Below are positions 10,222 to 53,136 of a stretch of 64,000 nucleotides of DNA, one piece after another. Source of the stretch: Flavicella sediminum (GTDB lineage: Bacteria; Bacteroidota; Bacteroidia; Flavobacteriales; Flavobacteriaceae); the NCBI RefSeq assembly GCF_006381105.1, contig NZ_VDET01000036.1, positions 62,001-126,000 of the forward strand. Direction: 5' to 3'. The notes beneath the pieces were generated by a model that saw nothing but the letters and a program-made list of their open reading frames with translations, was not told the origin of the DNA and did not search any database. A program made the translations under genes and the position numbers. The first letter of the stretch is position 1. Each line of letters starts with the position of its first letter.

Positions 10222-10247
10222 AATATATAACTTTTTTTTTTGGACAA

Positions 10248-13200
10248 TTAAAATGTTAAGTTTACACCTAGTGTATACACCTTTGGTCTTGGATATGCTG
10301 AATAATCAATCCCTCTATTTAAAGCACCGTTTCCATTGGTACTTACTTCTGGATCTGGACCTGTATATTTTGTAATAGTTACCAAGTTAGTTCCCGTTGC
10401 AACTATAGTCGCATTTTTAAATAATGGAACCTTTTTTAAGTTATATCTAATACTTAAGTTTTTAAGTCGCACATAAGAACCATCTTCTACCAAAACAGAA
10501 TTTGGGATATTAACAACTTCTGGACTACCAGTACTTGGATATCTAACATTATTATGTTGGTTATCTAAAGTCCAACGATTTGCAAGATAATCTTGCGAAC
10601 TATTAGCACCTACCCAACCAGAACTAATAAAGGCTCTATTAAGGTTTAATATGTCATTACCGAAAGAACCTTGGACAAACATAGATATATTAAAATCTCC
10701 TACTTTGAATTGATTGTTCCATCCAAAGAAAAAGTCTGGGTTAGGATTTCCTATAACCTGTCTATCTTCTATACTTATGATACCATCGCCATTAAGGTCG
10801 TCAAATTTCCAAACCCCCGGCGTATTTGCTTGTACAGGACCATTACCATTATTATTTCGAGAGGTTGATGCAAAACGAGGATTATTTGTAGGATTACCAT
10901 CGGCATCAACTCCTGCTTCTGTTTTAATGTTAAAATTACCATTTGGATAGTCTACTAAATCATCTACTTGAATTAATCCTGTTACTTTATAACCATAAAA
11001 CAAACCTAATTGCTGCCCTGGAGTAGTTCTTGTACCATCAATTCCGAAGAAGTTTGTAGCTAAATTAGGTCCTTGAATAAATTCATTGGTACCGTATTCA
11101 ATTAATTTGGTTACGTTCTTTGTCCAGTTGAATTTGGTTGTCCATGAGAAATTCTTATTTCTAAAAATATCGTACGAAAAATCTACTTCAATACCTCTAT
11201 TTTCTAACTTACCATCATTAATTGGAATAGAACCAAAACCATTTTGAAGTGGTATTTGTAGATTATTTAATAAATTTTCAGTTATTCTTTCATAAACATC
11301 AACTGATGTTCTTAATCGGTTTCTGAATAAATTTAAATTCAATCCTAGATTTAATGTAGAACTAGTTTCCCACGTTAATTCTTTATTTGCAATACGTTCA
11401 GAAAAAGTAGCTGTGTTAAGTGTGTTATCAGTTAAACCAATTCTACCAATAGCATAAGTATCTAATGTTGAATATGGCCCCACACCAATTGAACTACCTA
11501 CTTTACCATAAGAAGTCCTTATTTTAAACTGAGAGATACTTTTAATCTTTTTCATAAAACCTTCTTTGTTTACATCCCAAGCTACTGCTACTGAAGGAAA
11601 GAACCCCCATGGATTTCCTTGACTAAACTTAGAATCTCCATCATTTCTTCCGGTTGCTGTAAACGTGTATTTCTTTTTGTATGAATACACAAATCTGAAC
11701 AATAAAGACTGGATGTAATTATTTGACTTAAAAGACTTAGGGTCTGATATTTGCTGAGCCAATTGAATAGCATCTGGCCCTAAATCATCAAATGTAAAAT
11801 CATTATATAATATACTCTTTCTATAACTAGTAACATCTGTATAACTGGCACCGGCTGTAACATTAATATTATGTCCATTAAACTTTTGATTGTTATAATT
11901 TACAAATGATTCAGCTGTAAATCTACTGGTCTCAGCATCAGAAAGAAACAACCTCCCATTTGCATTTCTTCCTAGTCTTGTTCTCTTATTTGCAAAACTT
12001 TGGTTTGTATTATTATTATAATTAAACCCCAGTCTATTCGTCCAATTTAAACCTTTTGCAATATTATAAACACCGCTAGTAGAAGCAATTAATGATTTAC
12101 CTCGTACCACATTATCCATTTGCGTAGCTTCAATTAAAGGGTTTTGTACAATATCTCCCTCTTGATCAAACTCATTTAAATCTCCTGACTCATCAAATAA
12201 ACGCACAAACGGATTGATTCTCATCGCTGAAAAAACAACACCAGCTAAACCACTCCTTGCGCTGGTTTGAACTCTTTGATTTCTAGAATTATTTAATTGC
12301 ACATTTGTGTTAAGCGTAAATTTCTCACCAACTTTCATTTTAGAATTGTATCTCAAATTCATTCTCTTAAATACGGAGTTTATAATAGTACCTTCATTTT
12401 CGTTAAAATTAACTGACAATAGTTGTGAAAATGTTTTGGTCCCGCCAGAAATACTAAAACTCAACGTTCTGTTAATACCCTGTCTAAAAATAGCATCCAT
12501 AAAATTAGTACCTACCCCTGCATTTTCAGGTAAAGGTCTGTTCGTTTCTGATCCATCAAAACGAATTCTATCAGCATCTAACAATTCCTGATATGTTAAC
12601 TGAGGACTTTGTAACACCGGTCTGTCGTTTGCAAATTGCGCATATTGACTTGCCGTAGCCAATTTATAAGGTACACCTATACTAGATATAGATGTTTTAA
12701 AAGACAGCTGAATTTTTGTTTTACCAACCTTTGCTTCTTTCGTTTTAATTAAAACAACACCATTACCCGCTCTAGCTCCATAAATAGCTGTAGCAGATGC
12801 ATCTTTTAAAACTTCTATACTTTCAATATCGTCTGGATTTAAACCTGCTAACGGATTCGTATTTGTAAAGAAACTATCACCTTCAGCCTGAGTATCTGTA
12901 CCTAAAGGAATACCGTTTATAACGTACAAAGGCTGACTACTTCCGCTTACACTATTTATACCTCTAATGTTTACAGAAATACCTCCTCCTGGCTCTCCTG
13001 AATCTTGTTGCACTAAAACTCCTGAAGCCTGACCTTGAAGTGTTTCAGTTATATTAGTAAACATCTGATCTTCTAAATCTTTACTTTTAATAGAACTTAT
13101 GGCTCCTGATACATCTTCTCTATTTGCTACTCCATAACCGATAACAACAACTTCGTCTAACGACTCCACATCATCTTTCATAATAACATCAACAACTGTT

Positions 13201-13481
13201 GACTTAATTACTATTTTTTCAGTAGTTGAAAATCCAATATAAGAATATACTAATGTAGCTGAATCTTTAGTTAAGGTAATTCGATAATTACCATCAAAAT
13301 CAGTTACTGTTCCATTTGAGGTTCCTTTTTGAACAATAGTTACACCAGGCAATGGTAAATTATCGACTGACTTAACAACCCCTGTAACTTCGCCTTTTTG
13401 TGCATAACTCCCAAAGGAAATAATTGTAAAAAGCAAGAATAAAGTCTTTTTTAAGACATTTCCGTAATTAATTAATTTCAT
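10248..13481 (-). CDS. SusC/RagA-family TonB-dependent outer-membrane transporter
   Basis: 1077 residues. Signal peptide ending FGSYAQ; CarboxypepD_reg-like domain at ~30-110 (GVVKSVDNLPLPGVTIVQ); the SusC signature LDEVVVIGYG at ~117; plug domain at ~125-245 (VNIRGINSVSG, PLYVINGIPL, IESIEVLKDASATAIYG); then the 22-strand barrel, ending in YTLGVNLTF with the terminal aromatic residue typical of outer-membrane proteins. It imports oligosaccharides with TonB/ExbBD energy. It is the first gene of a seven-gene operon and is preceded by a copy of the locus promoter motif at 13537-13580. Confidence 0.97.
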   Translation of the reverse strand: MKLINYGNVLKKTLFLLFTIISFGSYAQKGEVTGVVKSVDNLPLPGVTIVQKGTSNGTVTDFDGNYRITLTKDSATLVYSYIGFSTTEKIVIKSTVVDVIMKDDVESLDEVVVIGYGVANREDVSGAISSIKSKDLEDQMFTNITETLQGQASGVLVQQDSGEPGGGISVNIRGINSVSGSSQPLYVINGIPLGTDTQAEGDSFFTNTNPLAGLNPDDIESIEVLKDASATAIYGARAGNGVVLIKTKEAKVGKTKIQLSFKTSISSIGVPYKLATASQYAQFANDRPVLQSPQLTYQELLDADRIRFDGSETNRPLPENAGVGTNFMDAIFRQGINRTLSFSISGGTKTFSQLLSVNFNENEGTIINSVFKRMNLRYNSKMKVGEKFTLNTNVQLNNSRNQRVQTSARSGLAGVVFSAMRINPFVRLFDESGDLNEFDQEGDIVQNPLIEATQMDNVVRGKSLIASTSGVYNIAKGLNWTNRLGFNYNNNTNQSFANKRTRLGRNANGRLFLSDAETSRFTAESFVNYNNQKFNGHNINVTAGASYTDVTSYRKSILYNDFTFDDLGPDAIQLAQQISDPKSFKSNNYIQSLLFRFVYSYKKKYTFTATGRNDGDSKFSQGNPWGFFPSVAVAWDVNKEGFMKKIKSISQFKIRTSYGKVGSSIGVGPYSTLDTYAIGRIGLTDNTLNTATFSERIANKELTWETSSTLNLGLNLNLFRNRLRTSVDVYERITENLLNNLQIPLQNGFGSIPINDGKLENRGIEVDFSYDIFRNKNFSWTTKFNWTKNVTKLIEYGTNEFIQGPNLATNFFGIDGTRTTPGQQLGLFYGYKVTGLIQVDDLVDYPNGNFNIKTEAGVDADGNPTNNPRFASTSRNNNGNGPVQANTPGVWKFDDLNGDGIISIEDRQVIGNPNPDFFFGWNNQFKVGDFNISMFVQGSFGNDILNLNRAFISSGWVGANSSQDYLANRWTLDNQHNNVRYPSTGSPEVVNIPNSVLVEDGSYVRLKNLSIRYNLKKVPLFKNATIVATGTNLVTITKYTGPDPEVSTNGNGALNRGIDYSAYPRPKVYTLGVNLTF

Positions 13482-13536: not shown

Positions 13537-13580
13537 CAATATTAGTATTATAGAAAGACAAATGCATCCTGCCGAATCTG
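13537..13580 (-). promoter_or_regulatory. Locus promoter motif, site 1 (susC operon)
   Basis: Minus strand: CAGA half-site, 5 bases, CAGGATG (GGATG at 13569-13565), 20 bases, then the -7 box TAATATTG at 13544-13537. The box is 56 bases from the susC start codon. Confidence 0.85.
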
Positions 13581-13802
13581 CATCAACAAACTATTTCGTC
13601 TCCTTTTCATTGTTAGAAAAACAGATATAAAACACTAGAAAACTGACAACTACACTCATAAAAAGGAGTTCAAGAACTCAAATTATAGAAACGGAAAGTT
13701 AAAATTATTTTACGGACGAACCTTTTATTTTTGAACGCCATTATAAAATTAAAATTCCAACAATTCTGCTTTTATTTTTTAAGTATTTGTTATTAACACA
13801 CA

Positions 13803-14722: not shown

Positions 14723-14766
14723 CAATATTAAACTCAATAAAATTATTTCTCATCCTGCTGTTTCTG
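14723..14766 (-). promoter_or_regulatory. Locus promoter motif, site 2 (13864-14688 gene)
   Basis: Minus strand: CAGA, 5 bases, CAGGATG (GGATG at 14755-14751), 20 bases, -7 box TAATATTG at 14730-14723. The box is 35 bases from the start codon. The -7 box is the same as at site 1. Confidence 0.85.
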
Positions 14767-14817
14767 TGGCAGCAATTTGTCCCTCAGTATTCCCATACCA
14801 ACAATACTCTTTTAATC

Positions 14818-18555: not shown

Positions 18556-18600
18556 CAGGTTTCAACAGGATGCAATTTATAGTTTACATAGTTACTTTTA
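18556..18600 (+). promoter_or_regulatory. Locus promoter motif, site 5 (18642-27378 operon)
   Basis: CAGG at 18556-18559, 10-base period, CAGGATG (GGATG at 18568-18572), 20 bases, -7 box TACTTTTA at 18593-18600. The ATG at 18570 is part of this motif. It lies upstream of the inferred transcription start and cannot serve as the start codon of the mRNA made from it. Confidence 0.85.
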
Positions 18601-18641
18601 CGTACATAAAAACTATTAATCCATTTCCAAAAGTTGAAAAA

Positions 18642-20399
18642 ATGACAAAAAAACACGCTATATTATTGCTGTTCCTTTTTATACAAACCTTGTTTTACGG
18701 TCAACTCCCTCCTGTCTTTGATCAAAACGACGAGGCTAGAGCGAGTCATTCTGAAATGACAAAAACATACCTAACTCCTGCTCGAATCATTTGGAAATCT
18801 GACACTTCTGATACTTATATTCAAAATGAGGAGAGTTTATTAAAAAAAGGGAATGGTCAAGTTGCTGTAAATGATAAAAATTCATTCAGATTAATTAGTA
18901 CAAAAGATCATAAACCCGGAATAATTTTAGATTTCGGAAAAGAAATTCATGGAGGTGTAAAAATTTCTATGGGAATAAGACCTAGTAAAAAACCACTTAA
19001 ATTAAGGGTTCGCTTTGGAGAATCTGTCTCGGAAACACTTTCTGATGTAGGTGGTAAAAACACGGCGACAAACGAGCATTCCCTTAGAGATTTTATCATA
19101 GAAGTACCATGGTTAGGTTCTGTAGAAGTAGGTGAAACAGGATATCGTTTTCTTAGAATTGATATAGTTGACGCCAATGAAATTGCACCAATCAAAGAAA
19201 TTGCTGCTGCCTTTATATATAGAGATATTCCTTATGTAGGCTCTTTTGAAAGTAACGACCAACGTTTGAATGACATTTGGATGACAGGTGCCTATACGGT
19301 TCAACTAAATATGCAAAACTATTTATGGGATGGAATTAAAAGAGACCGATTGGTTTGGGTTGGAGATATGCACCCTGAAGTAATGACTATTAATACTGTT
19401 TTTGGAAAAAATGATATTGTTCCTAAAAGTTTAGACTTGGCAAGAGACCAACACCCTTTACCACAATGGATGAATACTATTAGCTCTTATTCTATGTGGT
19501 GGTTATTGATTCACAAAAATTGGTACGATTATCATGGAGATTTGGCCTATTTAAAAGAACAAGAAACCTATATGATTGGCTTATTAAATCAACTGAGTAC
19601 TTTTATCGACAAGGACAATAAAGAAATTTTAAACGGAGGTAGGTTTTTAGATTGGCCTACTAGTACCGACCCTAAAGCAGTGCATGCAGGTTTACAAGCC
19701 ATGATGATTCTAACTTTTGAAGCTGGTTCCGAAATAATGCAAGCTTTAAACAGAAGTGACTTAGAGAAAAAGTATAAAAAAATAGCAAAAAAATTAAAGA
19801 AACATACCCCTAAAGGAAATACGTCTAAACAAGCAGCTTCTATGATGGTGTTAGCTGAAATTTCTAAGGCTAAAAAAACAAACAAAGAAATATTAAGTAA
19901 AGACGGAGTGCAAAACATGTCTACTTTCTATGGATATTATATTCTAGAAGCCATGGCAAAAGCAGATGATTACGACGGTGCCTTAACCGTAATAAGAGAT
20001 TATTGGGGTGGTATGTTAGATCTTGGCGCGACTACATTCTGGGAAGATTTTAATATAGAAGAAGCAGCAACTAGCGAAAGAATAGATAGAATGCCAACCG
20101 CAAATAAAAATGATATCCATAAAGATTTTGGCGCTTTTTGTTATGTTGGTTTGAGACATAGTTTATGTCATGGTTGGGCAAGTGGACCTACTTCATGGTT
20201 GACACAACACGTCCTTGGTGTAAATGTTCTAGATGGCGGAAACACAATTAAACTGGAGCCTCATCTTGGCGATTTAAAATTTGCCAACGGTACATTTCCA
20301 ACAAAATTTGGGGTATTAAAAATCAAACATAAAAGAAATTCGCAAGGTAAAACAATCACTTCTTTTGAAGCTCCTAAAGGCTTGAAAGTAATACAATAA
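18642..20399 (+). CDS. GH78-like alpha-L-rhamnosidase family protein
   Basis: 585 residues from the ATG at 18642. This start gives a clean signal peptide (MTKKHAILLLFLF...YGQ), whereas the in-frame ATG at 18570 lies inside the promoter motif. An N-terminal beta region (~60-200) precedes an (alpha/alpha)6 barrel. The GH78 active-site block appears as DGIKRDRLVWVGD (~229-241), compared with the usual DCPxRERxGWTGD: the Asp, Arg and last Asp are kept, and Glu is replaced by Asp. The second catalytic block is TTFWEDF (~463). The C-terminal beta domain contains GVLKIKH. It probably removes terminal rhamnose or a related 6-deoxy sugar in the periplasm. It is the first gene of a five-gene operon, and the next gene starts 5 bases later. 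Confidence 0.8.
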   Translation: MTKKHAILLLFLFIQTLFYGQLPPVFDQNDEARASHSEMTKTYLTPARIIWKSDTSDTYIQNEESLLKKGNGQVAVNDKNSFRLISTKDHKPGIILDFGKEIHGGVKISMGIRPSKKPLKLRVRFGESVSETLSDVGGKNTATNEHSLRDFIIEVPWLGSVEVGETGYRFLRIDIVDANEIAPIKEIAAAFIYRDIPYVGSFESNDQRLNDIWMTGAYTVQLNMQNYLWDGIKRDRLVWVGDMHPEVMTINTVFGKNDIVPKSLDLARDQHPLPQWMNTISSYSMWWLLIHKNWYDYHGDLAYLKEQETYMIGLLNQLSTFIDKDNKEILNGGRFLDWPTSTDPKAVHAGLQAMMILTFEAGSEIMQALNRSDLEKKYKKIAKKLKKHTPKGNTSKQAASMMVLAEISKAKKTNKEILSKDGVQNMSTFYGYYILEAMAKADDYDGALTVIRDYWGGMLDLGATTFWEDFNIEEAATSERIDRMPTANKNDIHKDFGAFCYVGLRHSLCHGWASGPTSWLTQHVLGVNVLDGGNTIKLEPHLGDLKFANGTFPTKFGVLKIKHKRNSQGKTITSFEAPKGLKVIQ

Positions 20400-27378: not shown

Positions 27379-27400
27379 TAAAACATAGAAAAAAAGTACT

Positions 27401-27448
27401 AAATAGTTATTTACATATCCCCTAATAAAAACATGTAAATAACTATTT
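27401..27448 (+). terminator. Terminator of the 18642-27378 operon
   Basis: The arms 27401-27416 (AAATAGTTATTTACAT) and 27433-27448 are complementary over 16 bp with a 16-base loop, and TTGTTGTTTT follows on the plus strand. Confidence 0.7.
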
Positions 27449-27656
27449 TGTTGTTTTATAATAATCTTATATAGAAACAACTCCTAAATATTTCAATCTT
27501 TTTAAATCCACAAATAAAAGTTTGAACTGTCAATATTCTTGAGATTATTTAGTTAAATAAAATTCCAACATTCAAATAATTAACAATAATACATATACAT
27601 TATTAGAATACTATTTATTTAAACATAAAAACCACTAAAACCATATAAAAACGGAG

Positions 27657-27700
27657 CAGATGTAACAGGATGCAATTGTCACAGTTTTTCACAAACTTTG
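27657..27700 (+). promoter_or_regulatory. Locus promoter motif, site 6 (G8-protein operon)
   Basis: CAGA at 27657-27660, CAGGATG (GGATG at 27668-27672) with a 9-base period, 20 bases, -7 box AAACTTTG at 27693-27700. The start codon is 48 bases downstream. Confidence 0.85.
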
Positions 27701-27747: not shown

Positions 27748-30700
27748 ATGAAAAAAATACTCCTTTTCATTTTCCTTTTATCTATAAATTTCATTTCAGT
27801 TTCGTATTCACATTACGAAGGAAAGAATGAGGTCATTAATCCCAATGATCATTACTCTATAAATGCACTAGCATCTATCACTGCAATCTCAAATGGTGAA
27901 TGGAATAATAATTCTACATGGAGTTCTAATTCCATTCCTACAAACCTTGATGATGTTATCATTCCGAATGGAATTAGAGTTACACTATCAGGTACAATGA
28001 CAGCTAGAAGTATAAGTGTTTTTGGAATTTTAAGTCCTTTTAGTCTAACCACAAATTTCGAGTTAACAACCAAGGGTGTGATGATACAAAATGGTGGATT
28101 AATGCAAATTGGTAGTACAGCGTCTCCCTATTCGGCAAATGGTATTATTACACTTACAGGGTCAAACCCTTCGGAGGTATTAATGGGAAGCTCTGTAATG
28201 GGTTCCAAATTAATTGGGGTCATGTCAAATGGACGATTAGAACTTCATGGTATTGCAAAAAAAAGTTGGACACAATTGAACGCTACCGCATTAGCAGGGG
28301 CTAATAACATTACTTTAAAAGAAACTATTGATTGGGAAATTGGTGATGAAATTGTTATTGCATCAACAGACTTTGACCCACATCAAGCGGAAAAAAGAAA
28401 AATCACTTCAATAACAGGTAATATTTTAGGACTAGATGCTCCATTAAACTATATGCATTGGGGTGTTGAACAAACGTATAACAATGGTACCAAAGACCTT
28501 ATTTTAGACGAAAGAGCTGAAGTCGGTTTATTAACACATAATTTAAAAATACAAGGAGACATTTCAAGTGAATCAAACGGTTTTGGTGGGCATATTATGT
28601 CTATGTCCGGCTCTATTTCAAAAGCTTCAAATATTGAATTGTATAGAATGGGACAAAAATCTCAACTCGGTAAGTATCCTTGGCACTGGCATTTATTAGG
28701 AAATGCCAATGGACAATACATTAAAAACTCAGGTATTCACACCTCATACAATAGAGTTATTACTGTTCATGGAACAAACAATACAGTGGTAGAAGGTAAT
28801 GTTGGTTTTGATTTTCTGGGACATGGATATTTTTTAGAGGACGGAGATGAAACTGGTAATTTATTTAAAAACAACTTGGGTGTTTTATGTAAAAGACCCA
28901 AAGATGGAGAGGAAACTACACCTAATGATATTGGTATTGGTGCCGACAGAGGTGTCCCTGAAGAGGCATTTCCATCAACATTTTGGATTACAAACCCCAA
29001 CAATGACTTTATAGGAAATGTTGCTGCCGGTTCAGATGGTTCAGGATTTTGGCATCTCGTTTTAATAGAGCCAATAAATGAATCTGGTTCAAGCTATGAA
29101 CCAGGAATTCAACCTATGGGAGTTTTTGATGATAACAAAGCTCATTCAAACTTATTTAATTGGGGTATCGATAGTGGAGTAGATAAAACTACGGAAGAAC
29201 TGACAAATGGACATTACAGACCACAAAATGCCAATGGAAGTCAATTCATTCCAACCATTAATCGATTTACAGGTTATAAATCAGTTGATAGAAATGTTTG
29301 GATTAGAGCCAATAAAATGGATTTTTATGATTGTAAATTTGCAGATAATGGACGTTCTGATTTTTTCTCATATACACAAACTTTATTCAATTCATTAGTT
29401 GTTGGTAAATCTGACAATATTGGTACGCCTACATCTGCAAGTGAGATTGAAGCAGGCAGAACATTGCCCTATCCTGATAGAGGAGCAAAAGTTTTTAGCA
29501 ATGGTTTTAGAGGACATAGTATTTACGACGGTCCTTCTGGAATTGTAGATACACATTTTGCAGGTTTCGATTCTAACGGAGCTAATGCTTTTTGTTTCCA
29601 AACCAATGGAGCTTCACGAAAATCGACCAATCATTTTGCCAGAGGAATTACTTATGACGCTGCTATACCGGAAGCTAATAAATTTGATTTCACCAATACT
29701 TCTTATGTAAGCTATATGTATTTAAGTGGTATTATTGACGAAGATGGAAGTCTTACAGGACATGCTGGTAGCCGAGTATCTCCTATTATTTCATCGCATC
29801 CTAACGGGCGAAACTTATTTGAAAAAGGTGCCAACGTACAACAAACTGATATTATTGAAAAACCAGAATGGGGTGCTTGGATTACTTCAGTAAAAGAATA
29901 TAATTATTTTAGAAATATTGATTTTACGGATAAAGCAAATGGTGCTTTTACACCACGTTATTTTATTACAGAATATCCTGATAAAACCACTCATGCTGTT
30001 TTTAATGTACAGACACAGCAAATATATTTTGATGGTCCTGTTATTACAAACGATTTAGAGTACACTTATTATCTTCAATACCATAAACTCTCTAAATACA
30101 TGGTAGGCGTTTTAGACGGTTGTAAAACAAATTCTGAAAACATGATTGTTGCGTATTCAAACATTCCAGGCATAGCATATGGTGGAAATGCTACAAGAGT
30201 TACAAGTATGGCACAACTAAAATCAAGTACTAACCAAGCCTATTTTATAAAAGATAACACCTTTTATTTTAAATTTATTAGTACAGGAATACAAAGTAAT
30301 CATCTACAAAGACAGTTTGGACAAGACTTCAGGTTTAGAAATAGTGCGACTATTTGTAATGCCGGAAATTGCAATGATGATTCAGAATGGGGAGATATTT
30401 TAGATGATGTTACCTTAATAGATTATAGCATTCGATCTATGGATTTAGGATCTATTGACACTAATGACGATTCTAGAGATAGCGCAACTACAACAGATGG
30501 CTTGACCGTTCCCTCTTTTACTTATGCAAATACCAAAGTAAATTTTACTATTGAAAACAATGGTAATGGTCAAGCTGGTTATACCGATTATGTAATTAAT
30601 TTAGCTTCTAGACAAGTTTGGGAATATTTCAATACGTTGAATATTAATTATACCGGACCTGATGTAGAAGTATTAATTGAAGATACCGAAGGTGCAACAT

Positions 30701-31716
30701 TAAGTTTAGGAACTTATGCGTCTTCGGACATCGAAAACATTCGTATTGGTCAAGACTCTGAATTTGATAAATTTACAAAAGTTAAAAAATTAATATTACG
30801 TTTTCACGAATCTCATATAGGAGATATTCATAGTACATCTTCTGCAAATGTTCAGATCAATTACATAAAATTAGGTCTTGATATTCCAGAAAATTATAGT
30901 GTATCATCAACATCCACAATTCAAGATTCTGATGGAGATGGAATTTTAGATGCCGATGAAATAAGCCTTTGTAGAGATTCTAATTCCGCTTCAGATTTTG
31001 CTTTAGAATTTAATAGTGACAGTACGATTTTTGATGGATTTACACAAAAAAATGCAGATGGTAGTATTACAGAAGAATTAGGAGTATTAAAGGGAACCTC
31101 CTCGTCTAGCAGTGGTGATGTTCAAATTATAAAAAATGGTTTCTTAGACATGTTAGGTTCAGACATTAGTACACTTAGTATCAGACTTAAAGCTAATACA
31201 GCCAGCAGCAGAGTACAATTTTTTTGGCAAAATGAAAATAGTGGTCCTGCTTCAACAAGAACAGTTTTCAAAAATTACACGGGCAATGGTAATTTCCAAA
31301 CTCTTTCTTTTGATATGACTTCGAATAGCGAATGGCAAGGACAAAAAATTAAAGGTTTTAGAATAGATCCTATTTCTAATACCAATGTTTCTTTTGAAAT
31401 TGATTGGATTCGTGCGAACAATGCCATTGACCCTACACTACCATGCGCTGATTTAGCTGTTGAAAAAATTGCCCCAAAGAATGCGATAAAACTATATCCT
31501 AATCCTATTAAACCTAACCAAATAATAAATGTTATTGGTATAGAAAACTATAATAATATTAAGATTATGGTTTACAATATTACTGGAAAAGAAGTGCCTT
31601 CAGAAATCATAGGAAACACAATAAAACTTCATAAAACTTCATCCGGAATTTATTTTATAAAATTCTTCCTAGAAGATAAAAATCAAATCATTACAAAGAA
31701 ATTATTTGTAAAATAA
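27748..31716 (+). CDS. Secreted G8-domain / right-handed beta-helix protein with T9SS sorting domain (CEMIP-like)
   Basis: 1322 residues with a signal peptide ending VSYS. G8 domain at ~42-170 (GEWNNNSTWSSNSIPTNLDD, then GRLELHGIAKKSWTQL). A long parallel beta-helix follows, with the histidine-rich core LGKYPWHWHLLG (His313, His315), NRVITVHGTNNTVVEGN and LGHGYFLEDGDE. This G8 plus beta-helix arrangement is known from animal CEMIP/TMEM2, which depolymerise hyaluronan. Later come a calcium-binding DSDGDGILDADE loop (~1070), a beta-sandwich (~1090-1230) that may be a carbohydrate-binding module, and a T9SS sorting domain (KLYPNPI ... ITKKLFVK). It is a good candidate for a surface or secreted endo-acting depolymerase; this is inference. 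Its stop codon overlaps the start of its paralogue. Confidence 0.85.
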   Translation: MKKILLFIFLLSINFISVSYSHYEGKNEVINPNDHYSINALASITAISNGEWNNNSTWSSNSIPTNLDDVIIPNGIRVTLSGTMTARSISVFGILSPFSLTTNFELTTKGVMIQNGGLMQIGSTASPYSANGIITLTGSNPSEVLMGSSVMGSKLIGVMSNGRLELHGIAKKSWTQLNATALAGANNITLKETIDWEIGDEIVIASTDFDPHQAEKRKITSITGNILGLDAPLNYMHWGVEQTYNNGTKDLILDERAEVGLLTHNLKIQGDISSESNGFGGHIMSMSGSISKASNIELYRMGQKSQLGKYPWHWHLLGNANGQYIKNSGIHTSYNRVITVHGTNNTVVEGNVGFDFLGHGYFLEDGDETGNLFKNNLGVLCKRPKDGEETTPNDIGIGADRGVPEEAFPSTFWITNPNNDFIGNVAAGSDGSGFWHLVLIEPINESGSSYEPGIQPMGVFDDNKAHSNLFNWGIDSGVDKTTEELTNGHYRPQNANGSQFIPTINRFTGYKSVDRNVWIRANKMDFYDCKFADNGRSDFFSYTQTLFNSLVVGKSDNIGTPTSASEIEAGRTLPYPDRGAKVFSNGFRGHSIYDGPSGIVDTHFAGFDSNGANAFCFQTNGASRKSTNHFARGITYDAAIPEANKFDFTNTSYVSYMYLSGIIDEDGSLTGHAGSRVSPIISSHPNGRNLFEKGANVQQTDIIEKPEWGAWITSVKEYNYFRNIDFTDKANGAFTPRYFITEYPDKTTHAVFNVQTQQIYFDGPVITNDLEYTYYLQYHKLSKYMVGVLDGCKTNSENMIVAYSNIPGIAYGGNATRVTSMAQLKSSTNQAYFIKDNTFYFKFISTGIQSNHLQRQFGQDFRFRNSATICNAGNCNDDSEWGDILDDVTLIDYSIRSMDLGSIDTNDDSRDSATTTDGLTVPSFTYANTKVNFTIENNGNGQAGYTDYVINLASRQVWEYFNTLNINYTGPDVEVLIEDTEGATLSLGTYASSDIENIRIGQDSEFDKFTKVKKLILRFHESHIGDIHSTSSANVQINYIKLGLDIPENYSVSSTSTIQDSDGDGILDADEISLCRDSNSASDFALEFNSDSTIFDGFTQKNADGSITEELGVLKGTSSSSSGDVQIIKNGFLDMLGSDISTLSIRLKANTASSRVQFFWQNENSGPASTRTVFKNYTGNGNFQTLSFDMTSNSEWQGQKIKGFRIDPISNTNVSFEIDWIRANNAIDPTLPCADLAVEKIAPKNAIKLYPNPIKPNQIINVIGIENYNNIKIMVYNITGKEVPSEIIGNTIKLHKTSSGIYFIKFFLEDKNQIITKKLFVK

Positions 31717-34700
31717 TGAGAAACACGCGAGTGAAAAATAAAAATAGATTAATCAATTTTATGAAAAACAGCTTATTGAATCAGAAATACTTAGTTCTAC
31801 TTCTCTTACTTGTATCAGGAGTATTATTGCATGCTAACAACAAGGATTCAGATAGCTATATCACATCTAGCAAATCAAGAAAAACAAATAGCATCAGGTT
31901 TTCTTCAAAACCTGATGCTATATTGTCTACTATAACGTCTATCCCCTATAGCGGGAATGTTAGCCTACCAGTAGGTAGTAATATTACAGGGCTTCATAAA
32001 TGGTCATCTATAAACAGTTGGGTTGGAAACTTAAAGCCAACAAATACAGATGATGTTTTTATAGATGAAAATTCTGTGTTGGTATTAGATGAAAACATCA
32101 GTGTAAAATCTATTACCGTTGCTGGAAAATTAATTGTCGATCTTTCAAAAGACATTCGCATTTCCACAGAATTTATTTTCGTAAAAGGAGCACAAGCCTA
32201 CTTTGAATGGGGAACAGAAACGGAACCCTATTTAAAAAATGGAGTCATAACTTTGATTGGTACGGATACTGAGAAAAAAATTCCCAATACAAACGTCTCA
32301 ACAAAATCAATTGTTGTTATGGACAATGGAGTTCTTGAACTACATGGTGAAAAAAAATTATCTTGGACAAAACTAAGTGCCAATGCAATAAAAAATAGAA
32401 ATGTTATAAGCTTGGTAGACCCTGCTACAAATTGGAAGGTTGGAGATTCTATAATTATTCTATCTTCTCGAATTAATATGAATCAAGCGGAAGTAAAAAC
32501 TATAAAAAGCATTTCGAATAATAAAAAAACAATTAGATTAGATTCGGTATTACAATATCCACATATCGGTACAGCTCATTCTTATACTAGTCCATCAAAC
32601 AAAACATGGAATGCTGATATTAGAGCAGAGGTAGGATTGTTATCAAAAAGCATAAAAATCCAAGGAGATTCTGATTCAGAAGATTTACAATATGGTGGCC
32701 ACATTATGGTTCATTTCAATGGTATTGCTCATGTTGAAGATATAGAGTTGCATAAAATGGGGCAAAAAAAGGTACTTGGTAGATACCCTTTCCATTGGCA
32801 TTTAGTAGAAGAAAGAGGTGCTGGGCAATATTTAAAAAACACGAGTATTTATAGAAGCTATAACCGTGCAATTACAATTCATGGAACAGAGTCTACATTA
32901 GTTGAGGGTAATTTCTGTGTGGACCATCTAGGTCATGGTTTATTTATGGAAGATGGAGGCGAACGTTTTAATATTATTAGAAATAATGTAGTAGCCGTTA
33001 CAAGAAAGCCAGACGAGGGAGACGAATTAACACCTTCTGACAATCAATTCAGCACCCCACAAAATGCTTCGCCATCTAGTTATTGGCTTACAAACCCAAA
33101 CAATATTGTTACAAACAATATAGCAGGAGGTTCAGATGGTACCGGTTTTTGGTTTATTTTTCCAGATAAGCCCATTCAACAGTCTTCAGGTGTAGACAGA
33201 CTAAAAAATTTAAATCCGAGAGGAGATAAATTAGGTGAATTTTCAGGAAATACAGCCCATAGTAATAAAAATGGCTTTGATATATTTGATATTCTAAGAG
33301 AAGATCATTCCATAGGAGCCAATGCAAGTTGGAACAGAACAGAAAAACGCTATTTAGACAACAATACTTGGTATGCAAATGAAATTGGCGTGTATGGTGG
33401 TATTGGTGGTGGCGTCCCTACTAGAAACGTTATTTTTAGAAATAATGTGTTTGTTGACAACGAAATTCATTTAATGCATGCGAATTATACAGATCATCTC
33501 AACTGTATATTTATTGCAAAATCAGGTGAAAGTGTATTTAATGGAGAACGTGTTTTAATGAAAGCATACGACGGAGCGTTTTCTATAACTAACTCTTATT
33601 TAGTAGGTTGGAATCAGCCAGAAACAAAATACGCAGCATCAATTGGAGGCTCTAAAAAGCATCCAAATTATGTGGTATCAGGTATTGAGAAAGATTTTAC
33701 GGGACCTCCCAATTTTAATCTTCCAAATTATGACAGGTTGCAGAATGGCCCTGCAGGTGCCAATAGTACATCACATGTTCGAGTATGGATCTTTGCTATA
33801 TGGGACAAAGATGGTTCTTTAACTGGTGTACCAGGTGGAGGAACTATAATATCTAATCACAATATGCTCCGTGATGGTACAGAAAAACCTTTTGAAAATT
33901 GGCGGAATACCTACTTCACAAAAAAACGTATTGGACATCTTAATTTCCCAATAATTAGCGGTAATGAAAATGACCCTAATGCTCCTAGAATGACTTTTAC
34001 AAGAACTAAAGCAGGAACATCTAAAGCAGGGCATTATCATTCTAATGGTTTTTATAATATTCCTCAAACGGCTGTCATTTTAAATGATGATTTTCTCTAC
34101 ACGATTCAATTTGAAAATCTACCTGATAGCAGAAAACTTACATTAAGATTGGAAGACACTTACAAAGATGGTGACCATATAATCATTAGAATGAAGAATT
34201 TTGCGAAACTTGCAGGGATTACTACAGAAGAAAACTATCCTGTAGCTACAACCTTAACAGCTTTAGAAAACTCAAGCGAAACAACAGTTGCCAAACTAGG
34301 AAACCATTTTTACGTAAAGTTCTTTGGTACAAAACTAGGAGTTTCTGTTATTAATTTTAAATGGAATATACAACCTGCGGGTTGGCCCGTATTAGATACC
34401 GATAATGATGGTGTTACAGATAGAGATGAAACTTTTGCAGGAACCGAGTATATAGGTTTAGGTCCACTATATGAAAATGAACCACTGTTAAATATTCAAT
34501 CTGTACAAGTAAACAATAGTATAACTTTATACCCTAATCCTATCAACTCTAACCAAATAATAAATATTGTCGGTTTAGAAAGCTACAATGATGTTAAGGT
34601 TATGGTATATAATATTACTGGAAAAGAAGTGCATTCAGAAATCATAGGAAACACAATAAAACTTCATCATATTTCAACAGGAATTTATTTTATAAAATTC

Positions 34701-34751
34701 TTTATTGAAGATAAAAAACAAATTCTTACGAAGAAATTATTTGTGAAATAA
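31716..34751 (+). CDS. Secreted G8-domain / right-handed beta-helix protein with T9SS sorting domain, paralogue
   Basis: 1011 residues from the ATG that overlaps the previous stop (TAATG). The in-frame ATG at 31761 gives a more standard signal peptide (MKNSLLNQKYLVLLLLL...LHA). G8 domain at ~95-225 (HKWSSINSWVGNLKPTNTDD, GVLELHGEKKLSWTKL). The beta-helix carries the same core as its neighbour: LGRYPFHWHLVE (His360 and His362 from the first ATG), NRAITIHGTESTLVEGN and LGHGLFMEDGGE. Near the end are a DTDNDGVTDRDE calcium-loop and a T9SS sorting domain nearly identical in DNA to that of the upstream gene. It lacks the extra beta-sandwich of the larger paralogue. A 15-bp inverted repeat lies inside the coding region at 31888-31921. 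Role as above: candidate depolymerase. Confidence 0.85.
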   Translation: MRNTRVKNKNRLINFMKNSLLNQKYLVLLLLLVSGVLLHANNKDSDSYITSSKSRKTNSIRFSSKPDAILSTITSIPYSGNVSLPVGSNITGLHKWSSINSWVGNLKPTNTDDVFIDENSVLVLDENISVKSITVAGKLIVDLSKDIRISTEFIFVKGAQAYFEWGTETEPYLKNGVITLIGTDTEKKIPNTNVSTKSIVVMDNGVLELHGEKKLSWTKLSANAIKNRNVISLVDPATNWKVGDSIIILSSRINMNQAEVKTIKSISNNKKTIRLDSVLQYPHIGTAHSYTSPSNKTWNADIRAEVGLLSKSIKIQGDSDSEDLQYGGHIMVHFNGIAHVEDIELHKMGQKKVLGRYPFHWHLVEERGAGQYLKNTSIYRSYNRAITIHGTESTLVEGNFCVDHLGHGLFMEDGGERFNIIRNNVVAVTRKPDEGDELTPSDNQFSTPQNASPSSYWLTNPNNIVTNNIAGGSDGTGFWFIFPDKPIQQSSGVDRLKNLNPRGDKLGEFSGNTAHSNKNGFDIFDILREDHSIGANASWNRTEKRYLDNNTWYANEIGVYGGIGGGVPTRNVIFRNNVFVDNEIHLMHANYTDHLNCIFIAKSGESVFNGERVLMKAYDGAFSITNSYLVGWNQPETKYAASIGGSKKHPNYVVSGIEKDFTGPPNFNLPNYDRLQNGPAGANSTSHVRVWIFAIWDKDGSLTGVPGGGTIISNHNMLRDGTEKPFENWRNTYFTKKRIGHLNFPIISGNENDPNAPRMTFTRTKAGTSKAGHYHSNGFYNIPQTAVILNDDFLYTIQFENLPDSRKLTLRLEDTYKDGDHIIIRMKNFAKLAGITTEENYPVATTLTALENSSETTVAKLGNHFYVKFFGTKLGVSVINFKWNIQPAGWPVLDTDNDGVTDRDETFAGTEYIGLGPLYENEPLLNIQSVQVNNSITLYPNPINSNQIINIVGLESYNDVKVMVYNITGKEVHSEIIGNTIKLHHISTGIYFIKFFIEDKKQILTKKLFVK
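31888..31921 (+). repeat. Perfect inverted repeat (15-bp arms, 4-base loop) inside a coding sequence
   Basis: ATAGCATCAGGTTTT, loop CTTC, then the exact complement. It lies 172 bases into the second G8 gene, between the signal peptide and the G8 domain. As RNA it would form a very stable hairpin, and no T-run follows. Confidence 0.8.
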
Positions 34752-34770: not shown

Positions 34771-34824
34771 GGTTCTTAGTACAATGATAAATAAGCAACT
34801 CTTTTTATCATTATACTAAGAACC
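34771..34824 (+). terminator. Long inverted repeat directly in front of the DUF1080 gene (terminator or RNA element)
   Basis: Arms 34771-34791 and 34804-34824 are 21 bases each with one mismatch and a 12-base loop. No T-run follows on the plus strand. The right arm ends 6 bases before the ATG at 34831, so the hairpin would cover the ribosome-binding region of that gene. It lies 20 bases after the stop of the second G8 gene. Confidence 0.65.
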
Positions 34825-35671: not shown

Positions 35672-35754
35672 TTTGTACCTAAACAGTAGTATGATTCCAT
35701 AGATTACAGCTACTTATATATTGATTCCATTTAAAAATTCTCTTAAGCCCCTTA

Positions 35755-35798
35755 CAGAAGCAGCAGGATGTAATTTTGTTATTTTAACTAGACTTTTG
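35755..35798 (+). promoter_or_regulatory. Locus promoter motif, site 7 (35855-37222 gene)
   Basis: CAGA at 35755-35758, CAGGATG (GGATG at 35766-35770) with a 9-base period, 20 bases, -7 box GACTTTTG at 35791-35798. The start codon is 57 bases downstream of the box. Confidence 0.85.
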
Positions 35799-35854: not shown

Positions 35855-37222
35855 ATGAAAAAAATTATTTTAAAAGTAACAATCATTACTAGCCTTCTAC
35901 TGTCTCTCGATAGTTATAGTCAATATCAAGTTTGGCTAGGTACCATAGCTGCACCAAGGAGTTCATTAGATGTAACTGACCAATGGGAAGACGCCGCCAG
36001 AAAAGTACAAGGGTTAAATATTAAACGTGCCAACAAGTTCGTTTCATTGCCTGGGACTCCCAACGATGGTGAAGAAAACTTAGGTAATGGAGATGAGTTT
36101 GATTCTTTTGTTAGAACTTTTAATGCAGCTAGTCTTAATAATACAAATACTGGATATGTAGAAATAGCAAGAACAAAGTTCAAGGTTCTTAGGCCTAATG
36201 CTCCCGATTACCTTTTAGAGAGACCTGAATTAGATGATTATTTAGTAGATCTATTTCGTACGACCAGTGATCGAGGTGGATATAGTGTTAATGCTCTTAT
36301 GTTTTATGATAATTATGAAGGAAGTAATTCTGAGAACAACCTTATTTATAGATGGTCTAAGAATGAAGTTCAAAGAATGAGAGATTGGTTGGATGCAAAC
36401 GGAAGAGCTGGTGTTAAACTTTATTCTACCGCTCGGGGTAACTCCTCTAATAGTCAAGAGTTTATTGAAGACACAAATGTAGATGGTGTTGTTATAGAGG
36501 GTATTCCTCAAAAATGGTATGATACAACTAAAAACCAAAACAGACAAGATTTACTTAGGTGGATAGTAGGTGAGCCAACCCTTAACAACAAAAGGATTAT
36601 TTTTCAACTACCTGTAAGTAGTATGGATAACCCTTACGGAACCCCTAGTGGTTTTGAACAAACGCGAGAATTTGTTAGATGGCTTGGAAGTAGAACCTAC
36701 TTGAGATTTGAGTTTCTACAAAATAATAGAGTAGTGATTATGCCTGTAACTTACAATCCTGCTTTTACTTTTTATCCCGAAACAGAAAATAATGGAAGAA
36801 ATTATGCTAATAGTATGACAGGTATTGCTTTATCGCTAATAGAACAAAAAAAGAATTTTCAAGGTCTAACTAGTATTTTACCTACGAAAAAATTTGCTGC
36901 TAGAACTGTAAGACCTAATGCTTTTAGAAAATCTGGAGATTCATCTAAAGATAAACGATCTATAGAAACTTTAAACTTAGAATCTACAGATATTCTAATA
37001 TATCCAAATCCATTAAACAATGGTAACTCGTTAAATGTAAAAAACTTAACATTAAATCAAAATGTACAGGTTGAAATCACTGATGTAACAGGAAAAACAA
37101 TTCAATACAAGAAAACAGAAAACACTTTAAACTTACAAAATACAAGTGCTGGAATATATATTGTTAAGTTCTTTATTGAAGACGCTAATGAAGTAATTAT
37201 TAAAAAGCTTTTTATTAATTAA
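35855..37222 (+). CDS. Uncharacterised secreted protein with T9SS sorting domain, possible (beta/alpha)-barrel enzyme
   Basis: 455 residues with a signal peptide ending SYSQ. I do not recognise the family. From residue ~25 to ~350 short hydrophobic strands alternate with helices, as in a (beta/alpha)8 barrel: QVWLGTI, NALMFYDNY (~146-154), GVKLYSTARG (~186-195), DGVVIEGIP (~210-218), RIIFQLPVSS (~247-256) and RVVIMPVTYNP. Asp152, Glu155 and Glu215, at or after strand ends, could be catalytic. The C-terminus (~385-455) is a T9SS sorting domain (ILIYPNPLNNG ... IKKLFIN). It is a single-gene unit with its own promoter motif and terminator. Export outside the cell plus co-regulation suggest an endo-acting glycoside hydrolase, but this is inference. 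Confidence 0.7.
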   Translation: MKKIILKVTIITSLLLSLDSYSQYQVWLGTIAAPRSSLDVTDQWEDAARKVQGLNIKRANKFVSLPGTPNDGEENLGNGDEFDSFVRTFNAASLNNTNTGYVEIARTKFKVLRPNAPDYLLERPELDDYLVDLFRTTSDRGGYSVNALMFYDNYEGSNSENNLIYRWSKNEVQRMRDWLDANGRAGVKLYSTARGNSSNSQEFIEDTNVDGVVIEGIPQKWYDTTKNQNRQDLLRWIVGEPTLNNKRIIFQLPVSSMDNPYGTPSGFEQTREFVRWLGSRTYLRFEFLQNNRVVIMPVTYNPAFTFYPETENNGRNYANSMTGIALSLIEQKKNFQGLTSILPTKKFAARTVRPNAFRKSGDSSKDKRSIETLNLESTDILIYPNPLNNGNSLNVKNLTLNQNVQVEITDVTGKTIQYKKTENTLNLQNTSAGIYIVKFFIEDANEVIIKKLFIN

Positions 37223-46658: not shown

Positions 46659-49600
46659 TTAATTTTTTGCTGCTTGAATTGTAACAGGTCCTAATAAGCC
46701 AGAAGTAATTAGCTCTTCTGCTTTTGTAGCACTATCTATAATAACCCAAGTCGTTCGCTCTTCTTTACTTAAAGCTCTATCACCAGTTAATCTATTTCTC
46801 CAAACATTCACAACTTCTACTTCAATTGTATTTTCACCTTCTTTAAGTACATTATTCGCATTTAATTTAAAAGGGGCTATCCATGTAGTTCCAATATTTT
46901 TTCCATTAATTTTAACAGTCGCCATAATACCTACTTTCCCTAAATCAATAAAAACATCATTCTCAGTGTCCTTTGCCGAATAATCAAAAGTTGACGTGTA
47001 AACAGCCGTACCTGAGTAGAACTTTATTTTATCATCTTCACTAGTTATCCAGTCAGTTAACGATGGGAAATCAACGATAGTTTTTGGTCCAATTTCTTTG
47101 TTTTTGAAATCAACTTTCCAAGAATTTTCTAATGTCTGTACAATTTTTGTTTCAGGGAAATTATTTTGATTCTTAACATCTTTCGTGTTTTCTGCTTCAG
47201 TAAAGACAACAAACCAACTTTGCAATGCTTCCATTTTTATTGGCACTGCAGTACGACCATTTACATTCTTAAAATCAGGTAAATCCTTCATTGTTCCACT
47301 AACTGCATCCCATAATTGAGGCTTCATTCCATTGACTCTAAATGAAGGTGAGAATTCAATTACTTGATCACTTTGGTTAGTTAAGAAATAAATTTCCATA
47401 CCTGGCATTGTTCTGTGTGTCCAAAGAACAGATGCTTGTCCATTTAAATCTACATCCTTGTCGATGTTCAATTTCGTAAGTGCATCTTGCAATTCCAAAC
47501 CGTCTACAATAGCACCTTTTCCATATGATTTTAGTTTAGCATCACTGCTTCCCCACATTTTAGCTGCAACCGCTTTCACTTTTTCATCACTTTCAGGATA
47601 GTTTTGTAAACTTGGAGATTTCACAGGAGCCTTTCCATAAATCTTACCACCTTGTGCTACTAAAGATTCTAATTTCTCTAAAAGCTCTGGTCTCATGGTA
47701 TCAAATGGAGGCAATACCATTAAACTGTATGTCATTCCATCAGGTAAAACTAACTTTCCATCTTTTACAGACATTCCATTTATAATTACCTCAGCATTGA
47801 TATAATCATAAGAATATCCTTTTGGTAATTCCGGATTTCTAACTCCTGTCATAATTGGTGCATCTTCTCCAATAAAATAACAAACATCTGCCGCATATTT
47901 TCCTTGTTGCAGCATATGTTGAGATCTTCTCAAATAATCGAAATAAGATTTAGATTTTTTAAACCATGTATTGTGACGGTTAAATTCTGTACTAAACCAA
48001 GCATTTACTCCTGGTACTCTAGCATCGTCTGGTTGATGGATATATAAATGCAACACAAAATGATTGATTCCTTCTGTTAAAGACCAATCCCCTCTTTTCT
48101 TAAGCATTGCAGGATGTCGAACATATGAACGATTTCCAGCAGTGAACGCCTCAGCAGACACTCTGTTTTTCCCATAAATATGAGCTGCAGATGATGCAGA
48201 TTTACATTCTATATCTCCTAAAGTTCCTTCATTCCAAAATTCTCCACTAACTAAATCAGATTGACCACCATACATTAAGAATTCTGATGGAAATCCCCAG
48301 TGACCATAATTTTCTAACCAAAGTTGTAAATTGTCTTTATTACTTGCTTCTCTTAAACCTCCTGTATATTCGTAAGCAACTGCATCTGCAATAGAACGAC
48401 GTAAATCCCACAAGAAACGTTCAGACTCTTCTACACTTCCTACAATTCTTCCTGTAAATACAGGTAAATATTTCTTAGGATTGTAACCAAACTTGGCTTC
48501 AAATTTAGCTTCATAACCGTCTGTCCAGTTTTGAGAACCCATTTCGTAACTATCAGCAATTACATATTTAAAGGCGCTTTTACTTTCTTCAGGAATTCGT
48601 TTTAAAAATTCCCCGATAAATTGTGAGTAATGATACTGAGCCAAGGCTTTATTTGCTTTATCCACTTCATATCCTTTTCCTTGTGGTGCCGATGGTGAAT
48701 TTTTTGTTCCAGTAGGTGTCATTCCAAAACGTTGTACTGTCCAATTACCTGCTGGTGCATTCCAACTAAGCTTTCCACTAGCATCCATTTTATCGCTAAT
48801 GTCAATCACGTCATTTGATCCTACTTTTAAAGAAGCATCCACGTCTTTTTGTTGATCCCATTTATAACTATTCCAAGCTGGAAATGGTGTTGGATGCATT
48901 TTAGCCAAACTTTTTCTAGCAAAACTCTCCATTCCTGATGCTTCAGAAATTACAAGTTCTCCAAGATCCCAAGATTGCTTTTGCTGTGCAGCGTTTCCTT
49001 TATTTAACTGTTTAAAAATTACTTTAAAACGATTTGATTTTACTCCAGGTAAACTTATTACTAAATGAGCGTACTTATCGGCTCCCACGTTTGGTGTTAG
49101 TTTTCGTCTATCAACCGTAAATGTTTTAATTTTTTTATATTTTCCATCAGTCATGGCGAATACCTCAGCTTTCAAAAACATATTCTTTTGTCCTGGAATA
49201 AGATGTAAACTATTCGCTACTATCTCATTTTTAGTTGTTAGTTCAACTTCATATTTCCCAACTTTATTTGCAAAACTAGTTACAGAATTATTATTCCCAT
49301 CAGTTAAGTTATTCCCATTTTTAACTGTAGGCTTAATTACAATTTTAGTGCTTTTTTGAGAACTTGTAATTCCCTCTGCCTTTATGGATGGAAATGCCAA
49401 CACATACGTATCTTGAAATTCTTCAAAAGGTTGTGCTAATTGTACATCTATATTTTTCCCTCCTTCTAATTTAACTTCAGAATAAGTTACATAACGCATC
49501 GCCATATCCGACTTTACCCAAGGTCCACCAGACTGACTCCAACCCGGACAATTAAATGCACCGATATCAACACCTATACGTTTTCCTTCATTGACTGCAT

Positions 49601-49916
49601 GCACCATATGCGACCACCATTCCTCACTTAACATAGGAACTTTTCCGTCTTTTTCATCAGGATTTATATTTCCTATCAAAGCACCACCAATTCCGGCTGC
49701 CTTCATTGCTTCTAAATCTTTGGTAATTCCATCTTTAGAAATATCATCACCAATCCAATACCAATAACACCAAAGTGTATTATCATCTGTTGGAGTAATA
49801 AATCCAGCTTTTAGTTTTTCTAAATCAAGTTTATCCTCTTTAGAGGTTTCACAACTATTGAAAATAAGTGCGAATAAAACGATAATAATTTTAAAATTTG
49901 TTGATAGAAATTTCAT
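46659..49916 (-). CDS. GH106 alpha-L-rhamnosidase-family glycoside hydrolase, lipoprotein
   Basis: 1085 residues with a lipobox (LIFNSC, Cys22). GH106 layout: GITKDLEAMKAAGIGGALIG (~62-81), AVNEGKRIGVDIGAFNCPGWSQSGGPW (~108-134), DSYEMGSQNWTDGYEAKFEAKFGYNP around 450, SAEAFTAGNRSYVRHPAMLK around 590, and EGINHFVLHLYIHQPDD. The Glu residues in DSYEMG and SAEAFT correspond to the conserved acidic pair of the family. The C-terminal beta-sandwich (~930-1080) ends with NTIEVEVVNVWRNRLTGD and GLLGPVTI. The family cleaves alpha-L-rhamnose linkages. It is the first gene of the minus-strand operon from promoter site 8. Confidence 0.94.
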   Translation of the reverse strand: MKFLSTNFKIIIVLFALIFNSCETSKEDKLDLEKLKAGFITPTDDNTLWCYWYWIGDDISKDGITKDLEAMKAAGIGGALIGNINPDEKDGKVPMLSEEWWSHMVHAVNEGKRIGVDIGAFNCPGWSQSGGPWVKSDMAMRYVTYSEVKLEGGKNIDVQLAQPFEEFQDTYVLAFPSIKAEGITSSQKSTKIVIKPTVKNGNNLTDGNNNSVTSFANKVGKYEVELTTKNEIVANSLHLIPGQKNMFLKAEVFAMTDGKYKKIKTFTVDRRKLTPNVGADKYAHLVISLPGVKSNRFKVIFKQLNKGNAAQQKQSWDLGELVISEASGMESFARKSLAKMHPTPFPAWNSYKWDQQKDVDASLKVGSNDVIDISDKMDASGKLSWNAPAGNWTVQRFGMTPTGTKNSPSAPQGKGYEVDKANKALAQYHYSQFIGEFLKRIPEESKSAFKYVIADSYEMGSQNWTDGYEAKFEAKFGYNPKKYLPVFTGRIVGSVEESERFLWDLRRSIADAVAYEYTGGLREASNKDNLQLWLENYGHWGFPSEFLMYGGQSDLVSGEFWNEGTLGDIECKSASSAAHIYGKNRVSAEAFTAGNRSYVRHPAMLKKRGDWSLTEGINHFVLHLYIHQPDDARVPGVNAWFSTEFNRHNTWFKKSKSYFDYLRRSQHMLQQGKYAADVCYFIGEDAPIMTGVRNPELPKGYSYDYINAEVIINGMSVKDGKLVLPDGMTYSLMVLPPFDTMRPELLEKLESLVAQGGKIYGKAPVKSPSLQNYPESDEKVKAVAAKMWGSSDAKLKSYGKGAIVDGLELQDALTKLNIDKDVDLNGQASVLWTHRTMPGMEIYFLTNQSDQVIEFSPSFRVNGMKPQLWDAVSGTMKDLPDFKNVNGRTAVPIKMEALQSWFVVFTEAENTKDVKNQNNFPETKIVQTLENSWKVDFKNKEIGPKTIVDFPSLTDWITSEDDKIKFYSGTAVYTSTFDYSAKDTENDVFIDLGKVGIMATVKINGKNIGTTWIAPFKLNANNVLKEGENTIEVEVVNVWRNRLTGDRALSKEERTTWVIIDSATKAEELITSGLLGPVTIQAAKN

Positions 49917-53121: not shown

Positions 53122-53136
53122 CTTGCTTAAAGTAAC

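Follow-up and report, generated by a model that had tools for sequence, protein, structure and literature searches.

Tandem CEMIP/TMEM2-family beta-helix proteins, predicted to be secreted, in a putative sulfated rhamnose-rich polysaccharide locus of Flavicella sediminum

A 64,000-nucleotide stretch of the Flavicella sediminum genome (contig NZ_VDET01000036.1, positions 62,001 to 126,000), referred to here as the window, carries two tandem genes on the plus strand, G8A (27748..31716, an open reading frame (ORF) of 1322 residues) and G8B (31716..34751, an ORF of 1011 residues), whose products are firmly assigned to the CEMIP/TMEM2 family and to a polysaccharide locus. We interpret them as right-handed beta-helix paralogues that are exported by the type IX secretion system (T9SS) and would be extracellular accessories to a locus whose presumed target is a sulfated, rhamnose-rich polysaccharide. 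It is highly probable that both proteins are extracellular and belong to the regulon of the locus, and some catalytic action on a glycan seems reasonably likely. For the more specific proposal that they are the endo-acting depolymerase of the locus polymer, we estimate a probability of roughly 0.45. The sequence itself shows the domains, the T9SS tails, the tandem arrangement, a conserved context in other genera, a shared upstream motif and a fold close to that of TMEM2.

In G8A, an N terminus that by eye resembles a signal sequence is followed by a G8 domain (residues 57-178), a CEMIP beta-helix (278-469) and a T9SS tail (1249-1321). G8B is composed of a signal-like N terminus, G8 (101-221), the beta-helix (326-520) and the tail (938-1010). 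The bit scores lie far above the curated Pfam cut-offs for both CEMIP_beta-hel (216.3 for G8A and 222 for G8B; cut-off 27.3) and G8 (82.7 and 85.2; cut-off 22.9), confirming the family assignment of an earlier, sequence-only reading of the window. T9SS export, which it had also proposed, is borne out by Por_Secre_tail (32.6 and 36.3; Pfam cut-off 27) and by TIGR04183 (38.0 and 39.7; cut-off 23), the type A C-terminal sorting domain of T9SS cargo. For the C-terminal region of G8A ahead of the tail, the Pfam scan gave no family.

The core motifs described earlier, HWH, NRxITxHGT and LGHGxFxEDG, are found in the translations of both genes, but TMEM2 has HFH where the window proteins have HWH, and therefore the first motif is better written HxH. 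G8A and G8B are 36% identical across the core and 70% identical across the last 87 residues; judging from these sequences, they are diverged paralogues. The two ORFs share one base, in line with their description as overlapping genes, but the overlap hinges on the choice of start, since M16 of G8B (31761) is signal-peptide-like and equally plausible. In Algibacter lectus, the nearest named relative, whose G8B is 91% identical over the aligned part, the G8B homologue begins 22 bases past the end of the preceding G8A gene.

The only sequence match in the PDB up to E 1 is the human TMEM2 ectodomain 8C6I (1.7e-62 for G8A and 1.1e-42 for G8B). TMEM2 and its paralogue CEMIP have the G8 domain and the CEMIP beta-helix in common with the window proteins, and HxH, HGT, LGH and EDGxE are kept. 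A model of the G8B core (residues 94-560, two phage sequences added), with a predicted local distance difference test score (pLDDT) of 70.5 and a predicted template modelling score of 0.77 and poor beyond about residue 340, finds its best PDB match in TMEM2 (Foldseek E 2.1e-20; Z 26.1, root-mean-square deviation 3.2 over 405 residues, 31% identity). The structural comparison with TMEM2 that the sequence-only reading had suggested thus came out in favour of the TMEM2-ectodomain-core fold. Another model, of G8B residues 46-935 with four relatives, had a pLDDT of 37.9 and was discarded.

The next fold matches (Z 17-21) are the AlgG epimerase, the Sf6 and other tailspikes, the PfbA adhesin, PL6 lyases, NosD and chondroitinase B, a list that, for a predicted model, demonstrates a common fold and not function. 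PL6-type enzymes (chondroitinase B, 1OFM/1DBG, and alginate lyases) are right-handed beta-helices (Z ~18-19) that cleave polysaccharide; chondroitinase B (1ofm, Z 18.2) has only the fold in common with the G8B model. They differ from the window proteins in the low fold-alignment identity (8 to 15%) and in that no GH88-type gene was found on the window's contig C30 (E <= 0.001). No lyase family appears among the Pfam matches of G8A and G8B to E 1, a search that included no profile specific to PL6. Phage tailspikes and depolymerases (Sf6, Dettilon, CBA120, Klebsiella phages) likewise present a beta-helix acting on a surface polysaccharide (Sf6, 2vbk, Z 19.3), whereas the fold-alignment identity is ~5 to 13% and the window proteins are made and exported by a bacterium. 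The Sf6 tailspike is an endorhamnosidase.

The catalytic proposal is built on a small set of conserved polar residues. H360, H362, H389, E412 and E416 (G8B numbering) are invariant in all 29 aligned proteins, consisting of 27 with E <= 1e-15 to the core and two phage proteins; residues such as W240, G349, Y357 and W457 are also invariant, and H407 of the LGHG motif is kept in 26. Weak or partial matches to PF24606 (e.g. L014-L019, L021-L023 and L029) were excluded from this set, and residue counts were not drawn from an alignment with poorly trimmed rows (L004 and L009). By alignment, the five residues also occur in TMEM2, as H550, H552, H585, E608 and E612. The codons of the putative active site span 32793..32963 in G8B and, for the aligned equivalents H313, H315, H341, E364 and E368, 28684..28851 in G8A, both on the plus strand. 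In the model, the strands 266-269 (F-H-W-H), 293-296 (I-T-I-H) and 318-319 (M-E) occupy three consecutive turns, one strand per turn, and have hydrophobic residues in alternation, and E416 falls just beyond the last of them. The model thereby suggests that the histidines and E412 face outwards on one side of the helix, the clustering of the five residues being read solely from strand order.

The surroundings of the pair were characterized by a Pfam scan of 32 of the 34 window ORFs of at least 120 residues, the two cut by the window ends being left out. The inventory comprises SusC/SusD, 12 sulfatases, two GH78, two GH106, two GH43, one GH3 and one DUF1080-type protein. SusD and SusC lie at 8674..13481 (minus), a GH78 rhamnosidase at 18570..20399 (plus), and the GH106 rhamnosidases at 46659..49916 (minus) and 58105..60987 (plus; GH106b). 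Homologues of this GH78 are found in the loci of A. lectus and of the genomes G153, G227, G237 and G125, and those of the first GH106 in the same loci and in that of G339. The combination of GH78, GH106 and sulfatases points to a sulfated rhamnose-containing polymer as the substrate, and the locus polysaccharide is accordingly presumed from its genes to be rhamnose-rich.

Among the scanned ORFs, Pfam recognised no endo-acting lyase, as the sequence-only reading had stated, but two uncharacterised candidates exist. One is an orphan T9SS-tailed protein encoded at 35855..37222 (plus), a possible endo-acting enzyme. Its family, with members at L073 18594-19805, L090 16422-17702 and L102 18233-19288 in addition to the window gene, is seen only in the source genome, one same-genus genome (2 of 395) and A. 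lectus; Pfam shows nothing besides a T9SS tail, and a profile search of the PDB gave no match. The other is a DUF5722 protein at C30:136801-138984 (L074 10801-12984), ~11 kb past the right end of the window. The stretches IHNEVDAG and YLSENGTNSP, compared across six aligned DUF5722 proteins, show little or no variation and seem to resemble the catalytic glutamates of clan GH-A enzymes. PDB searches with the protein and with a profile gave no useful relative, and no paper under the name DUF5722 was found in the literature searched.

A regulator-like motif, GCAGANNNNRCAGGATGNAWT, precedes locus genes and is kept in A. lectus. It was first spotted through comparison of intergenic stretches, and its pattern has 11 matches in the window where 1.37 would be expected, a number reached in none of 100 shuffles; the susC, G8A and 35855 sites are not independent evidence because the pattern was derived from these three. 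Eight of the 11 matches stand 59 to 125 bases ahead of a same-strand gene start, at 13561-13581 (susC), 14747-14767, 27656-27676 (G8A), 35754-35774 (the 35855 orphan), 50104-50124, 51593-51613, 53136-53156 and 57985-58005 (GH106b). A matrix built from these eight sites yields leave-one-out scores of 18.1 to 26.5, with 21.5 for the putative regulator site of G8A on the plus strand, against a background of 0.1 matches per 64 kb at >=18 (20 simulated sequences). Five A. lectus stretches not used for the matrix contain nine sites with scores of 19.6 to 29.4, each 19-112 bases before a gene; the two G8A copies have 29.3 and 21.3, and susC 29.4. The G8B gene of G153 has a less strong site 173 bases upstream (18.2), and that of G339 a marginal one (14.1).

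The pair had been said to be driven by the locus promoter. This is supported insofar as the G8A site is common to susC, GH106b and other locus genes, but the promoter element TAnnTTTG was not found within 300 bases upstream of G8A. Terminator-like inverted repeats flank the pair on both sides, at 27392..27457 (with a T-rich 3' end, between GH3 and G8A) and at 34771..34824 (after G8B), suggesting that the two genes may form a separate transcription unit.

PF24606 was detected at E <= 0.001 in 18 of 397 family-sample genomes, 12 of them below 1e-40 including our own, and in five of the 395 genomes of the phylum sample. A FastTree phylogeny of the 29 proteins places eight members in a G8B clade (support 1.0), five of which (our own, A. 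lectus, G153, G339 and G227) reside in loci with GH106, GH78, sulfatases and DUF5722. The gene order varies, since our G8B lies within a plus-strand run and those of G153 and G339 are divergent from GH106, while A. lectus has a tandem of three genes, two G8A and one G8B. These differing orders argue for a retained linkage of G8 with the locus. Strong G8 genes occur in three of the six other genomes bearing DUF5722, which is present in seven of 359 family genomes, as compared with 11 of 396 in the sample (P ~3e-4, uncorrected for relatedness).

If the proposed function is correct, the G8 proteins would be induced together with the locus, and the intact polymer would bind along the G8 beta-helix and be cut internally at a site formed by the invariant HxH, the HGT histidine and the ExxxE residues. 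The cut would proceed by hydrolysis rather than beta-elimination, and the resulting oligosaccharides would be imported by SusCD for the sulfatases, GH78, GH106, GH43 and GH3. Everything in this scheme that goes beyond secretion signal and common upstream motif is our inference. Hydrolysis fits better than lyase action because contig C30 lacks a GH88-type gene, and on the same ground a lyase mechanism as first choice was set aside; the ground is a weak one, since the G153 and G339 loci have such a gene.

A number of observations weigh against an endo-acting role. GH88-type genes exist elsewhere in the source genome, in addition to the one each in the G153 and G339 loci. Three of the eight G8B-clade genes stand beside unrelated genes: DUF885 and, 5 kb away, GH9 in G138; tryptophan genes, judged by eye, in G981; and central metabolism genes in G271, on a 10 kb contig of a genome that is 76% complete. 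These three genomes have no DUF5722, and GH106 is absent from G138 and G271 and represented in G981 by several genes more than 100 kb off on the G8 contig. Conversely, no strong G8 gene is present anywhere in the DUF5722-bearing genomes G237, G125 and G212; the last two give no match, and G237 gives one partial match (E 1.4e-6) outside the locus. The loci of G237 and G125 hold GH106, GH78 and SusCD homologues; the 40 kb inspected in G212, a stretch that begins at a contig end, show DUF5722 and sulfatases but neither GH106 nor GH78, the GH106 of this genome being on another contig. These comparable loci, with G212 partly seen, imply that the G8 genes are a frequent yet optional part. Together with the two other candidate enzymes and the G8 genes found in genomes devoid of DUF5722, they leave the previous view of the pair as prime suspects for the first cut of the polymer without support in that form. 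Other bacterial G8 proteins also adjoin unrelated genes, so that a general assignment of bacterial G8 proteins to polysaccharide loci was rejected.

The same caution applies to the motif. Scanning of stretches from G227, G237, G125 and G212 gave no site of >=17.5, and a score of 18.0 arose in the unrelated stretch L045. A motif-like site of 18.1 sits 33 bases before the G8B-clade gene of G981 (L083 17982), which is unexplained. From these results, the motif does not occur universally, and a score of ~18 is unsafe on its own. We also note that G981 carries no DUF5722, yet several GH106 genes are located on its G8-bearing contig C1.

The comparison with TMEM2 raises further objections. The window proteins do not have the lectin-like domain 1 that is inserted in the helix of animal CEMIP/TMEM2, the gap being seven residues in G8A and eight in G8B versus 172 in 8C6I, and it is to this domain that the reported TMEM2 loss-of-function substitutions map. 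No Pfam match lies where the C-terminal lectin-like domain 2 would be, in a C-terminal half that is poorly modelled. The window proteins also differ from TMEM2 in their T9SS tails and in their rhamnosidase/sulfatase locus. Moreover, the activity of TMEM2 is disputed. Niu et al. (PMC10206443) found TMEM2 to be without activity, could assign no active site from its structure and, of the two acidic Ca2+ ligands of PL6 lyases, saw only one in TMEM2; PMC10474455 claims activity, the title of PMC10276149 denies it, and the review PMC11275217 calls it unclear. Family and fold support the analogy to CEMIP/TMEM2 drawn in the sequence-only reading, but the analogy is weaker than that reading made it, the activity being contested and the lectin-like insert missing. 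The literature matches listed, which leave subscription journals mostly outside their coverage, contain no activity report for a bacterial G8 protein and no study of a bacterial or phage one. In addition, the invariant residues could be structural, or could bind a metal without catalysis.

Several other explanations deserve consideration. In the main alternative, the G8 proteins would be non-catalytic, on the surface or secreted, and would keep the polymer close to the cell by binding it, with the first cut made by DUF5722 or the 35855 orphan; we regard this as less likely than the depolymerase reading. DUF5722 accompanies GH106, GH78 and sulfatases in our own locus and in those of A. lectus, G153, G339, G227, G237 and G125, the last two of which are free of G8, but this constancy is partly built in because DUF5722 served as the survey marker, and DUF5722 is not an obvious extracellular enzyme, as two scanned proteins have no T9SS tail. 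The 35855 family does have the tail in two members (our own and A. lectus), and its gene has the shared upstream motif; however, the family was found only in our own genome, one of the same genus and A. lectus. Among the fold matches is also the adhesin PfbA (Z 18.8), which would suit a binder, whereas five polar residues that are invariant from phage to bacteria and present in human TMEM2 go, in our judgement, beyond what is usual for one.

It is improbable that the proteins modify the polymer and leave its backbone uncut, for example as a beta-helix epimerase or an ester-removing enzyme. After TMEM2, AlgG, an alginate epimerase (Z 20 to 21), and AlgE modules (Z 17) are among the closest folds, but these matches reflect a common fold at 9 to 14% identity, and no locus feature that we saw specifically requires an epimerase or ester-removal step. 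We give a slightly smaller chance still to the pair being a passenger of the locus that acts elsewhere, for instance in attachment or biofilm formation. The other bacterial G8 stretches whose neighbours were inspected, and three of the eight clade members, do lie outside such loci; nevertheless, the upstream motif is common to G8A and susC in two species, and linkage recurs in three lineages (our own with A. lectus, G153 with G339, and G227).

Relatives of the pair are also encoded by two unrelated phage contigs among the IMG/VR records (UViG_3300035181_000241 / 3300035182_000247 and 3300035661_000262). The genes lie at L310 2358-5954 (minus), L359 8001-11597 and L360 1192-4155. On the first contig (L268 and L310, one sequence), a G8 protein of 1198 residues (CEMIP_beta-hel E 1.3e-45) adjoins an SU10-type portal (677 bits), with the terminase large subunit upstream; the portal-adjacent position suggests that it is a virion protein, perhaps a tailspike. 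The second contig, L360, encodes a relative of 987 residues with 38% identity, near phage NAD-salvage genes. Both are phage-encoded, unlike the window proteins, and carry all five invariant residues. The phage G8 proteins had no match among 50,697 phage records, and queries with the window proteins retrieved no viral-contig relatives. Scanning viral contigs for the motifs produced many chance matches; among the 240 loci listed, at least two, of identical sequence, encode a relative.

Whether these proteins form one enzyme class bears on a wider question. Both the hyaluronidase status of TMEM2/CEMIP and the location of the active site have been in dispute (PMC10206443, PMC10474455). The bacterial relatives are compact, are free of the lectin insert and stand beside sugar enzymes, and together with the five residues found from phage to human they turn the issue into a simple question of mutagenesis and assay. 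That bacterial, phage and animal G8/CEMIP proteins constitute one class with a common active site for cutting anionic polysaccharides is a tentative idea that we consider doubtful; equally doubtful are the substrates that it would entail, namely sulfated rhamnose-rich polymers in this locus, glycans of the host surface in the case of the phages, and hyaluronan in animals. A shared active site nonetheless offers a real and cheap test of a standing question, since a common site, if true, would end the controversy over TMEM2 and establish a new family of glycanases. If active, the G8 proteins would provide a new way of attacking sulfated rhamnose-rich polymers, and those of the phages might represent a novel kind of glycan-active virion enzyme.

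Two minor observations concern other relatives. In the same-genus genome G237, the stretch L048 (C1:987000-1006999) has a weak partial CEMIP-beta-helix match amid sulfatase and GH3 homologues. Some alphaproteobacterial and planctomycete G8 genes (L070 and L072) are plasmid-borne and located near genes for metal transport, namely a P-type ATPase and CusA/CzcA-type efflux.

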